This document shows, piece after piece, positions 3,399 to 52,188 of a DNA stretch of 64,000 bases. Position 1 is the first letter of the stretch. Every line of letters starts with the position of its first letter. Source of the stretch: Stutzerimonas stutzeri (GTDB lineage: Bacteria; Pseudomonadota; Gammaproteobacteria; Pseudomonadales; Pseudomonadaceae); assembly GCF_018138085.1 (NCBI RefSeq), contig NZ_CP073105.1, forward strand, positions 3,100,001 through 3,164,000, written 5' to 3'. The notes beneath the pieces are model-generated. The model did not search any database. It saw only the letters and a list, made by a program, of their open reading frames with translations, and had not been told where the DNA came from. Position numbers and translations under genes: made by a program.

Positions 3399-4478
3399 TC
3401 AGTCGCGCAACTGCTGCGCCGCCTTGCGCAGCATGTGCTCCGTCGCCGCCCAGCCCAGGCAGCCATCGGTGATCGATACGCCATAGCGCAATTCAGCGGC
3501 GAGCGGCTGGCAGCCGTCGAACAGGTGGCTCTCCAGCATGACGCCACGCAGGCTCATGTCACCAGCCAGGCGCTGTTCGATGACCGATTGGAGCACCGCG
3601 GGCTGGCGCAGCGGGTTCTTGCCGCTGTTGGCATGGCTGCAATCGACCATGATGCGCGAGGCGATGCCCTGCTTCTCCAATGTGCGACGAGCAGCAGCGA
3701 CACTGGCCGCGTCGTAGTTGGGTACGCCGTGGCCGCCGCGCAGCACCAGATGGGTGTCCGGATTGCCGCGCGTCTGCAGAAGTGCCGGATGGCCGAGATC
3801 GTCGATGCCGAAGTGCTGGTGCGGATGTTCCGCTGAACGCATGGCATCGCAGGCGACACCCAGGCCACCGTCGGTGCCGTTCTTGAAGCCCACCGGCAGA
3901 TCCAGCCCGCTGACCAGCTCACGATGTATCTGCGATTCGCTGGTGCGCGCACCGATCGCCGCCCAGCCGAGCAGATCGTCGAAGTACCCGGTCGCAAGCG
4001 GCTGCAGCAGTTCGGTGGCGATCGGCAGGCCGGCCTGGAGAATGTCCAGCATCAGGCGGCGCGACAGGTGCAGCCCCTCGGCCATGTTGCCGCTGCCGTC
4101 CAGGTGCGGGTCGTACATCAGCCCTTTCCAGCCGACCGTGGTTCGCGGTTTTTCCACGTAGGCACGCATCACCAGCAGCAGCTGATCGCTGACTTCGGGC
4201 GCAAGTGTGGCCAAACGTTCGGCGTACTCGAGCGCGGCGGCAGGATCGTGCAGGGAACAGGGCCCGATGACGACGAGAAGGCGTGGATCGCGTCCGTCGA
4301 GCACAGCGCGGATGGCGTTGCGGTCGTCATGGATACGTGCGGCAAGCGCGTCACTCAAGGGCAGACGTTGCCGCAATACGGCGGGGCTGGGCAGCGGCTG
4401 CGCGCTGCGGCGGGTGGAAATGGTTTCGGCGGAAAAGGCCGGGGGGTGGTTGGCAATGGCGGTGGCGGATGCATTCAT
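3399..4478 (-). CDS. 3-deoxy-7-phosphoheptulonate synthase (DAHP synthase, class I)
   Basis: A 359-residue AroF/AroG/AroH-type enzyme that condenses phosphoenolpyruvate and erythrose 4-phosphate, the first step of the shikimate pathway. Recognisable stretches are GPCSLHDP (PEP binding), ARTSESQIHRE, KNGTDG and DCSHANSGK near the metal site. The length matches the family (about 350-360). The start at 4478 has an AGAAGGAA ribosome site. Upstream lie two small aromatic-rich ORFs and a terminator, implying control of transcription or translation by aromatic amino acid supply. Which amino acid also feeds back on the enzyme allosterically cannot be told from sequence. Confidence 0.92.
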   Translation of the reverse strand: MNASATAIANHPPAFSAETISTRRSAQPLPSPAVLRQRLPLSDALAARIHDDRNAIRAVLDGRDPRLLVVIGPCSLHDPAAALEYAERLATLAPEVSDQLLLVMRAYVEKPRTTVGWKGLMYDPHLDGSGNMAEGLHLSRRLMLDILQAGLPIATELLQPLATGYFDDLLGWAAIGARTSESQIHRELVSGLDLPVGFKNGTDGGLGVACDAMRSAEHPHQHFGIDDLGHPALLQTRGNPDTHLVLRGGHGVPNYDAASVAAARRTLEKQGIASRIMVDCSHANSGKNPLRQPAVLQSVIEQRLAGDMSLRGVMLESHLFDGCQPLAAELRYGVSITDGCLGWAATEHMLRKAAQQLRD

Positions 4479-4522
4479 GATCTGGCGGTTCCTTCTGCCG
4501 GCGCGGGTGGTCCGCGGCGGCG

Positions 4523-4618
4523 CTAGTCGGGTGTTCGTTCGCGTGATGTCCGTTTGGCGTCGAAGCGGCTAAATCGCCAGTCATAGCGGTAATAACGGTC
4601 GGTGCGGTAGGTGGTCAT
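4523..4618 (-). CDS. Short aromatic- and arginine-rich ORF before DAHP synthase (possible second leader peptide)
   Basis: A 31-codon ORF with ATG at 4618 and TAG at 4523-4525, preceded by a good ribosome site (GAGGAA, about 7 nt spacing). Its residues include Tyr4, Tyr9, Tyr10, Tyr12, Trp14, Phe16 and Phe19 mixed with many Arg. It sits after the 13-bp terminator and 44 bp before the DAHP synthase start. It could be a second sensor peptide acting on translation of the synthase, or a small protein of its own. The aromatic density and position are seen directly; the function is inference. Confidence 0.55.
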   Translation of the reverse strand: MTTYRTDRYYRYDWRFSRFDAKRTSRERTPD

Positions 4619-4650: not shown

Positions 4651-4694
4651 GGCCAAAAAAACAAAACCCCCGGTCGGGTGGCCGACCGGGGGTT
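4651..4694 (-). terminator. Strong intrinsic terminator (attenuator) between leader peptide and DAHP synthase
   Basis: A perfect 13-bp stem (4665-4677 with 4682-4694) closes a 4-nt loop and is followed, on the minus strand, by a T-rich tract (TTTGTTTTTTT). It starts about 50 nt after the stop codon of the leader peptide at 4744-4872 and ends 33 nt before the mini-ORF start at 4618. A competing pairing is visible between 4711-4718 and 4676-4683 (7 of 8 pairs), which would break the terminator loop and could be an antiterminator. Confidence 0.85.
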
Positions 4695-4743
4695 CGAAAA
4701 CTGCTCTGGTGGCGACCCTGCTTGCTAGGGCGCCTGTGGGGTA

Positions 4744-4872
4744 TCAGGCGCGCCTGTGGCTAAACCAATACCCAAAGTAATAACCAGCGGTCGCAACCTG
4801 CTGCACACCCGCAATCGCGGCGCGAGTGGCACCGGCGTTTGCGTGAGAGAGGAAGGCGAGGCTGGGGGACAT
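4744..4872 (-). CDS. Aromatic leader peptide of the DAHP synthase attenuator
   Basis: A 42-codon ORF with a good ribosome site (CAGGAG, 7 nt before ATG at 4872). Its C-terminal part is GYYFGYWFSHRRA, so residues 31-37 hold three Tyr, two Phe and one Trp in seven codons. The stop is followed by a strong terminator. This is the layout of a classical amino-acid attenuation leader: ribosomes would stall on the aromatic codons when charged tRNA-Tyr, -Phe or -Trp is scarce. The rest of the peptide is Ala-rich with no recognisable domain. The peptide and terminator are visible; the regulatory mechanism is inferred. Confidence 0.8.
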   Translation of the reverse strand: MSPSLAFLSHANAGATRAAIAGVQQVATAGYYFGYWFSHRRA

Positions 4873-4956
4873 CGTGAGCTCCTGAATGGCGATTACCTTA
4901 CTGCGGCAAGCACCAGGCGGCAAGCTCAAGGGCCATGCGGTGAGCTGAAGCGGCTC

Positions 4957-5027
4957 GTGGGAGCGGTCTCGACCGCTAATAAACCGGGCTCCGGTACAAA
5001 CCCATTCGCGGTCAAGACCGCTCCCAC
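4957..5027. repeat. REP-like inverted repeat pair
   Basis: GTGGGAGCGGTCTCGACCGC at 4957-4976 faces its near-complement GCGGTCAAGACCGCTCCCAC at 5008-5027. Each arm is itself a partial palindrome. Arms starting GTGGGAGCGGTC are typical pseudomonad extragenic palindromes. It lies between the attenuator leader and ttcA and may act as an mRNA stabiliser or transcription block. Confidence 0.75.
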
Positions 5028-5123
5028 CTGCGGTTCTGCCCTTGGCGGACCAGCTAGGCTCAATCGTGGGCTTCAGCCCGCCAACCCGGCTCAGCGGACC
5101 AGCCGCTACGTCAGCGCTGCGCC

Positions 5124-36938: not shown

Positions 36939-37014
36939 TGGCGTCCCCTAGGGGACTCGAACCCCTGTTACCGCCGTGAAAGGGCGGTGTCCTAGGCCAC
37001 TAGACGAAGGGGAC
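36939..37014 (-). tRNA. tRNA-Glu (anticodon TTC)
   Basis: A 76-nt cloverleaf on the minus strand, 5' GTCCCCT to AGGGGAC, discriminator G and encoded CCA. The anticodon loop CTTTCAC gives TTC. It is identical to the copy at 37189 and is the last gene of the operon. Confidence 0.97.
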
Positions 37015-37062
37015 GAAACCTTCGATGAACAGATCGTCGAACCGCTACGACCTGTCGTGGAT

Positions 37063-37138
<76 letters not shown>

Positions 37139-37188
37139 GGATTTAACGTCTCCCGACTCGCGCCGCTTTCGCGTCGCGATCTGAATAA

Positions 37189-37264
37189 TGGCGTCCCCTA
37201 GGGGACTCGAACCCCTGTTACCGCCGTGAAAGGGCGGTGTCCTAGGCCACTAGACGAAGGGGAC
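37189..37264 (-). tRNA. tRNA-Glu (anticodon TTC), second copy
   Basis: Identical in sequence to the tRNA-Glu at 36939-37014, with encoded CCA. The repeated Glu-Ala pair shows a tandem duplication of a two-gene unit of about 250 bp. Confidence 0.97.
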
Positions 37265-37313
37265 GCAAAGCCCTTCAAAGGCAACCGGCGTTAACCGGTG
37301 TGGCAATCGAGAT

Positions 37314-37389
<76 letters not shown>

Positions 37390-51798: not shown

Positions 51799-51870
51799 GT
51801 GCCGAGGACGACCTCGGCTTGCTCGCAACTACCGGGGACGGCCCCACCCAGTCACTGTCCTTGTGGAGGT
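51799..51870 (+). promoter_or_regulatory. Guanidine-II riboswitch (mini-ykkC motif) upstream of gdx/sugE
   Basis: Two small hairpins with ACGR loops are visible: GCCGAGG-ACGA-CCTCGGC (51801-51818) and GGGG-ACGG-CCCC (51834-51845), about 15 nt apart. A GGAGG ribosome site follows at 51865-51869, just before the ATG at 51874. This is the mini-ykkC architecture, in which guanidine binding brings the two loops together and frees the ribosome site. Confidence 0.9.
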
Positions 51871-51873
51871 GCT

Positions 51874-52188
51874 ATGTCCTGGATCATCCTGTTTATCGCC
51901 GGTCTGTTCGAAGTCGGCTGGGCCGTTGGTTTGAAGTACACGGAAGGTTTCACCCGCCCGCTGCCCACCTTGCTCACCGTTGCGTCCATGTTGGCCAGCC
52001 TGGCGTTGCTGGGCATTGCCATGAAAGAGCTGCCGCTGGGCACTGCCTACGCCGTCTGGACGGGCATCGGAGCAGTCGGGACGGTGGTCGTCGGCATCCT
52101 GCTGTTCGGCGAATCGGCAGCGCTGTTGCGCCTGGCCAGCGTAATGCTGATCTGCATCGGCCTGGTCGGGCTGAAACTCAGCCACTGA
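51874..52188 (+). CDS. gdx: SMR-family guanidinium exporter (Gdx, formerly SugE)
   Basis: A 104-residue four-helix small multidrug resistance protein. It begins [26 protein letters not shown], with the Glu14 needed for proton/guanidinium exchange, and contains the Gdx-type [15 protein letters not shown] stretch. The guanidine-II riboswitch in its leader supports export of guanidinium rather than generic drugs. It is the only SMR gene here; the older name is sugE. Confidence 0.93.

Follow-up and report, generated by a model that had tools for sequence, protein, structure and literature searches.

P15 as a probable leader-peptide attenuator of a DAHP synthase gene, with a second aromatic leader peptide downstream

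The control region in front of a type I DAHP synthase gene (aroFGH) of Stutzerimonas stutzeri matches the Rfam family RF00627, "Pseudomonas sRNA P15". We consider it likely that P15 is a leader-peptide transcription attenuator through which the first shikimate enzyme responds to the supply of Tyr, Phe, and Trp, and that a second, translated aromatic leader peptide then adjoins the ribosome site of the gene. The open reading frames (ORFs), their codon bias, the helices with their conservation and covariation, and the linkage to one DAHP synthase are established from the sequences of the window (the whole 64,000-nucleotide stretch analysed) and its relatives.

Organization of the locus and identity of P15

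The elements lie on the minus strand of the window in the order of a likely promoter region, leader peptide 1 (L1), switch strands, terminator, leader peptide 2 (L2), hairpin, Shine-Dalgarno sequence (SD), and DAHP synthase, as follows.

Upstream of the leader, minus (shared strand): ttcA (tRNA 2-thiocytidine synthetase)
4744..4872, minus: L1, 42 codons and TGA, MSPSLAFLSHANAGATRAAIAGVQQVATAGYYFGYWFSHRRA
4768..4773, minus: strand A, GGGTAT (codons Gly-Tyr); partner A' (4744-4739) if ribosome-free; present in the centroid fold
4745..4754, minus: strand 1, GGCGCGCCTG, end of L1; equivalent helix in the Halomonadaceae-type set
4728..4736, minus: strand 2, CAGGCGCCC; partner is strand 1 or strand 3
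4711..4718, minus: strand 3, GGGTCGCC; partner is strand 2 (terminator free) or strand 4 (antiterminator)
4676..4683, minus: strand 4, GGCCACCC, top of the terminator hairpin
4655..4695, minus: intrinsic terminator (stem 4695-4664 and U-rich tail)
4667..4786, minus: match to RF00627 P15, model positions 1-119, 115.2 bits (gathering threshold 70) by covariance-model search
4523..4618, minus: L2, 31 codons, MTTYRTDRYYRYDWRFSRFDAKRTSRERTPD, SD GAGGAA
4568..4579, minus: near-invariant L2 core, TGGCGATTTAGC (Trp-Arg-Phe-Ser)
4497..4521, minus: hairpin from the L2 stop to the DAHP synthase SD; a hairpin with other letters is kept in relatives
4482..4487, minus: CGCCAG in the SD-ATG spacer of the gene, complement of CTGGCG in L2 (4580-4575); in a minority of loci
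3399..4478, minus: type I DAHP synthase (aroFGH), the regulated gene

The element described in the initial annotation is real, though it is already an Rfam family. RF00627 and the element are identical, but the family is typed as an RNA gene, and its model, which spans from within L1 to within the terminator, omits the L1 start, L2, and the target gene. P15 occurs in 156 of 198 Pseudomonadaceae genomes, 15 of 194 in the order, and 4 of 185 in the class, the window genome being included in each count. One match from the class search (L017) was treated as chance because no DAHP synthase lies beside it. The function of P15 was stated to be unknown in a 2017 paper, judging from its available passages (PMC5627042). 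The passages found in the literature searched, which lies outside subscription papers including Livny 2006, contain no tie between P15 and DAHP synthase, no attenuator reading of P15, and no description of L2; those found in an attenuator survey do not mention DAHP (PMC2965389).

In many relatives, TTGA(A) and, about 17 bases further on, AGTAAGCT or a similar sequence are recognized by eye shortly before the L1 ATG, and likely represent a promoter with a short 5' UTR. A consensus promoter scan of the window found none. A long inverted repeat (GGGAGCGGTC...GACCGCTCCC, 4955-5029), which we take to resemble Pseudomonas REP elements, lies between ttcA and L1; its only matches are sub-threshold ones to unrelated miRNA families. 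Elsewhere in the window, a Guanidine-II riboswitch (Rfam; 51800-51846, plus strand) precedes a small ORF ending at 52188, whose product looks by eye like a small multidrug-resistance-type (guanidinium exporter) protein, and a tRNA-Glu/tRNA-Ala pair is duplicated in tandem (36939-37389, minus strand).

Leader peptide 1 and the switch strands

The 42-codon ORF, its ribosome site, and its aromatic run, as initially claimed, are all present at 4872-4744 on the minus strand. The SD (AGGAG) is located 6 nt 5' of the ATG, and the aromatic end YYFGYWFSHRRA gives the peptide C-terminus ...TAGYYFGYWFSHRRA. The relatives compared by name are the best 80 of at least 594; one (L150) has no upstream sequence, leaving 79 loci, and all counts below over 80, 79, 78, or 75 loci belong to these best 80 of at least 594. 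L1 with its aromatic run is kept upstream of all 79 orthologues, 78 being detected by script and one (L159) by eye. An SD from our own motif list precedes 69 of the 78 script-detected ORFs and is missing from nine, which bears out the expected conservation of the ribosome site in most relatives. Tyr, Phe, and Trp all occur within the last 22 residues in 78/78 of these leaders. The N-terminus of L1 is variable. At the C-terminus, variants of (F/Y)-rich-GYWFS are kept in Pseudomonadaceae, and endings like GFSYWYWFS or GYWSGYWF in Halomonadaceae (family placement verified for four of these genera). A chance test was made for ORFs with ATG and SD that lie no more than about 520 nt from the gene and have at least four aromatics in nine residues. 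At least one such ORF was found in 74 of the 79 upstream regions (dinucleotide shuffles, 1/790) and at least two in 62 (0/790).

The codons of the run should also be noted. The last Phe of L1 is TTT in 77/78 loci and the last Tyr is TAT in 73/78; the DAHP synthase genes of these loci have TTT in 20/350 and TAT in 80/462. U-ending Phe and Tyr codons, and likewise the CGA and TTT of the L2 core described later, are wobble-read codons. For this reason, we read the near-invariant letters as the result of codon selection, which leaves room for a nucleotide-level role of the same letters.

Five RNA strands, the first at the end of L1, form the pairs 1:2, 2:3, 3:4, and 4:5, the last being the terminator. 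The proposed 13-bp terminator with a T-run was found at 4695-4664, with 13 Watson-Crick pairs and one G.T pair, the loop CCAC, and the tail TGTTTTTTTG. The proposed antiterminator (4718-4711 with 4683-4676) pairs at 7/8 positions and corresponds to helix 3:4. The earlier picture of the switch was incomplete in that it lacked two further upstream strands (1 and 2), which would decide its polarity, and also missed the hairpin before the gene SD. The fold of the 251-nt leader has a z-score of −3.28, with 1/200 shuffles equally good.

Conservation of the helices was examined in 46 non-redundant sequences of 146 of the Pseudomonas type and 14 of 15 of the Halomonadaceae type, which have different letters; L147, missed by the terminator pattern of the script, and L159, without a scripted L1, lie outside these helix counts. 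In the 46 sequences, the paired cells amount to 88.5% (1:2), 95.0% (2:3), 92.5% (3:4), 98.6% (4:5), and 88.3% (A:A'). Upon permutation of partners among the 60 loci, the native combination is better than cross-species ones for 1:2, 2:3, 3:4, and 4:5 (0/500 each), a test that can be inflated by clade composition and, for 4:5, also by the terminator-finding pattern. Within the subsets, 2:3 gave 1/500 in the 46 sequences alone, and 1:2 and 2:3 gave 11/500 and 31/500 in the 14 alone.

Double-sided changes in the 46 sequences number 14 cells in 4:5 and 9 cells in 1:2 (0/500 shuffles each), and covariation is graded as strong for 4:5, fair for 1:2, and weak for 3:4. No covariation was found for 2:3 and A:A' in these sequences, though both helices are conserved. 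In the 14 Halomonadaceae-type sequences, 1:2 (98.2% paired) and 3:4 (91.1% paired) have eight double-sided cells each (0/500 shuffles for either), and RNAalifold recovered the 1:2 helix unprompted. If changes are counted as pairs instead of cells, both helices fall within the shuffles in the 46 sequences (1:2, 141/500; 3:4, 442/500) and in the 14 (38/500 and 134/500). The covariation expected of the terminator across relatives is clear, as stated above for 4:5, and that of the 4711-4718/4676-4683 pairing is weak in the Pseudomonas-type set and clear, by cells, in the Halomonadaceae-type set. As expected of a leader-peptide transcription attenuator, the leader contains an SD-preceded ORF with a run of product codons, an intrinsic terminator before the gene, and a mutually exclusive antiterminator kept in evolution.

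We infer the direction of the switch, ribosome stalling, and tRNA identity as follows. A ribosome held up for lack of Tyr-, Phe-, or Trp-tRNA would cover strand A and leave strand 1 free; strand 1 would then pair with 2, and 3 with 4, so that nucleation of the terminator would be blocked and transcription would read through. When aromatics are plentiful, the ribosome would complete L1 and leave, A:A' would re-form and sequester strand 1, 2 would pair with 3, and the terminator would form, the product being only an RNA of P15 size. Since 3:4 spans only the top of the terminator, antitermination must be kinetic.

Ensemble folds were computed for the moment when strand 4 emerges, in 45 of the 46 Pseudomonas-type loci and the 14 Halomonadaceae-type loci. 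In the window, the computed probability of 3:4 is 0.87 with a ribosome on the aromatic run and 0.01 without a ribosome, where 2:3 reaches 0.82. The probability is equally 0.87 with a ribosome parked on the L1 stop codon, so quick ribosome release must be assumed. The mean 3:4 probabilities in the 45 loci are 0.79 and 0.72 for stalls at the Tyr codon before Trp and at the Phe codon after it, respectively, 0.55 with the ribosome on the stop codon, and 0.40 without one. The corresponding values in the 14 loci, in this order, are 0.95, 0.64, 0.59, and 0.79, the last of which indicates that the no-ribosome state is not clearly off there. Compared with the stop state, the stall state is higher by 0.1 in 21, lower in 2, and flat in 22 of the 45 loci, and higher in 7, lower in none, and flat in 7 of the 14.

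A primarily trans-acting role of P15 as a small RNA, as its Rfam name says, with the ORF and read-through being secondary, seems quite improbable. According to the available part of PMC2375449, P15 is an sRNA that Livny et al. reported; it is commoner without Hfq in Pseudomonas fluorescens according to passages of PMC5627042, and an attenuator leader peptide able to act in trans is described in part of PMC7298713. However, the conserved parts of P15 are the aromatic codons, the switch strands, and the terminator, and P15 stands ahead of DAHP synthase in the examined loci, with both absent in 13 of 14 tested genomes. A ligand-binding riboswitch, proposed for P15 from synteny in a passage of PMC2527527, is scarcely credible, since the coding run, switch strands, and terminator account for most of the conserved columns, and an aromatic ORF ends at P15 in 79/79 named loci.

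Leader peptide 2 and the ribosome site of the gene

The initial annotation overlooked a second aromatic ORF, L2, at 4618-4523 between the terminator and the gene (MTTYRTDRYYRYDWRFSRF...). Its core contains TGG-CGA-TTT. The exact form TGGCGATTTA(G/C)C has a single copy in the genome of the window and is found upstream of 143 of 164 loci and of 72 of the 80 named loci (the best 80 of at least 594, as before), and 75/79 have the core if one mismatch is allowed, the exceptions being Salinicola loci (L152, L153, L156, and L157). In all 75 core-bearing loci, the frame is open with ATG and SD, while the other two frames are open in 1/75 and 0/75. Per 16 codons, the L2 frame contains 6.1 aromatics, and the other two frames 0.1 and 0.8. 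The core codons are CGA in 74/75 and TTT in 75/75, against a background of 73 CGA in 2139 Arg codons of the DAHP synthase genes of these loci. L2 peptides vary between MNYATYYRYDSFTAWRFTSLRSGQPAASDRS... (P. fluorescens type) and ...GYYGYWRFSELRSCQCATSDRS... (Halomonas).

A conserved hairpin is located at the end of L2, directly before the gene SD. In 51 non-redundant loci, its mean z-score is −2.15 (below −2 in 29), and its arms score −16.0 kcal/mol in native and −11.65 kcal/mol in permuted combinations (0/500), where taking the arms from the best fold of each sequence favours native pairs. When shuffled sequences were treated in the same way, the gap was smaller (real, −4.5; 40 shuffled sets, mean −2.2 and extreme −3.0), and the hairpin therefore stands. 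This alignment-free test was used because the alignment of the region is badly gapped; with that alignment (A4, 39 sequences), RNAalifold predicted no common structure. In the window, no transcription terminator was detected downstream of L2 as far as the gene, and in the 39 aligned relatives an SD, not a U-run, follows directly 3' of the hairpin. In the long class of L2 (31 non-redundant of 65 loci), an H-type pseudoknot extends over RSxQxAxSDRSxxGG, with 95.5% of cells paired and a covariation score of 0.168 against 0.097 in shuffles (0/500), the structure being drawn from the same sequences that were scored; it is absent from the window. Coding-type conservation and the neighbouring hairpin are what the comparison establishes for L2.

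Several further roles were considered for L2 and set aside. Pairing of the core with the SD-ATG spacer is not a general feature, since at most 1/50 spacer shuffles are as good in 22 of 65 loci (window included) and not in the other 43; it is lineage-specific at best. Pairing of the core with strand 3 (TGGCGATTT with GGGTCGCCA) was rejected as a general partner because it fails where strand 3 is GGGACGCC. A frameshift from L2 to the gene was dropped because the L2 start is in no fixed frame with the gene start.

L2 may sense nothing and couple translation into DAHP synthase by termination and re-initiation, with the hairpin shielding the SD, a reading that we regard as a serious contender, short of probable. 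The L2 stop lies at −7 to +4 of the gene start in six Halomonas-type loci (L014, L159, L160, L161, L164, and L165); in most other loci it is at −37 to −50. In the model, the ribosome site of the gene becomes slightly more open on average once a ribosome sits at the L2 stop (8.2 to 6.8 kcal/mol in 55 loci and 8.1 to 6.1 in 27). The modelled opening energies, also considered with a view to direct masking of the gene SD by L2, change little, the mean shift between states over the 82 loci being at most about 2 kcal/mol. Pure coupling, however, would need neither aromatic codons nor the CGA-TTT described above.

As a working guess, L2 is a second, translational gate on DAHP synthase. It is possible, and we propose it tentatively, that two aromatic sensors act in series at two levels: L1/P15 would decide mRNA synthesis, and a ribosome held at the slow Trp-CGA-TTT core of L2, in some lineages just ahead of the H-type pseudoknot, would decide translation. 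An arrest peptide for which TnaC is the precedent, stalling on a free aromatic amino acid to repress translation of the gene, is unlikely. The Trp-Arg-Phe-Ser/Thr end is strongly kept and conserved structures lie downstream, but synonymous codons are avoided too, which favours codon reading or RNA over the identity of the peptide.

Linkage to one DAHP synthase and comparison with known systems

Besides the regulated enzyme and a paralogue (L167), the window genome encodes a third PF00793 protein as well as a type II enzyme. Among the 42 Pseudomonadaceae genomes without P15, 14 were searched for the orthologue, and in 13 of them it was not found, the sole match being the paralogue, which is 80-91% identical to L167 and 49-54% identical to the protein of the window. 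G421, a genome among these 13, is 77% complete. The 14th (G407) has the paralogue and a truncated match without upstream sequence. The L2 core is absent from all 20 non-orthologue loci examined (L167 and L171-L189). One of these, the DAHP synthase of a class-level genome (L187), has a different candidate aromatic ORF (...CARFYRWYYFPKPP...) about 290 nt upstream.

In the order sample, the L1 nucleotide core TA(T/C)TGGTTTA is found in 19/19 orthologues of 57-100% identity (L191-L209), and the L2 core in 15 of them. Two loci of family f20 with 55-57% identity (L211 and L212) have, by eye, a recast aromatic leader (FFWWFGYGFYFSQ or FSWWFSYGFYFSQ) and a terminator; L212, not L211, keeps the L2 core, in an ORF with few other aromatics. 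These recast leaders suggest that the arrangement may be older than the Rfam range of P15. The other nine loci below 57% identity in this sample have neither core.

Classical leader-peptide attenuators are known from the trp, phe, and his operons. The present leader shares with them a short ORF rich in product codons, alternative helices, and an intrinsic terminator. Unlike them, it has a mixed Tyr/Phe/Trp run before the common first enzyme and five strands instead of four, and its antiterminator grips only the top of the terminator. The tandem attenuators mgtM/mgtP of Salmonella mgtCBR also have two short ORFs per leader, but those ORFs read different signals, judging from the passages available (PMC3641672), whereas both ORFs of the present leader are aromatic and L2 is not followed by a terminator. 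Attenuation for a Tyr-type DAHP synthase has also been predicted in other genera, as attenuators at the DAHP synthase-tyrA operon of Vibrio (PMC1173090) and as a regulatory RNA at aroF of Shewanella (PMC2659441); the available passages of both describe neither a mixed nor a double leader.

Since leader-peptide attenuation itself is classical, the case is ordinary in principle, but it supplies a possible explanation for an orphan RNA and a second leader with its own conserved structures. The double-leader layout, which is rare, occurs in Pseudomonadaceae and Halomonadaceae and allows sensing at a second short ORF to be tested directly. If the series arrangement holds, the two sensors would give a steep response to the combined supply of the three end products. 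Entry into the shikimate pathway is controlled in enteric bacteria by the repressors TyrR and TrpR. For Pseudomonas, the attenuator reading gives an orphan Rfam RNA a concrete and testable job at this entry point.
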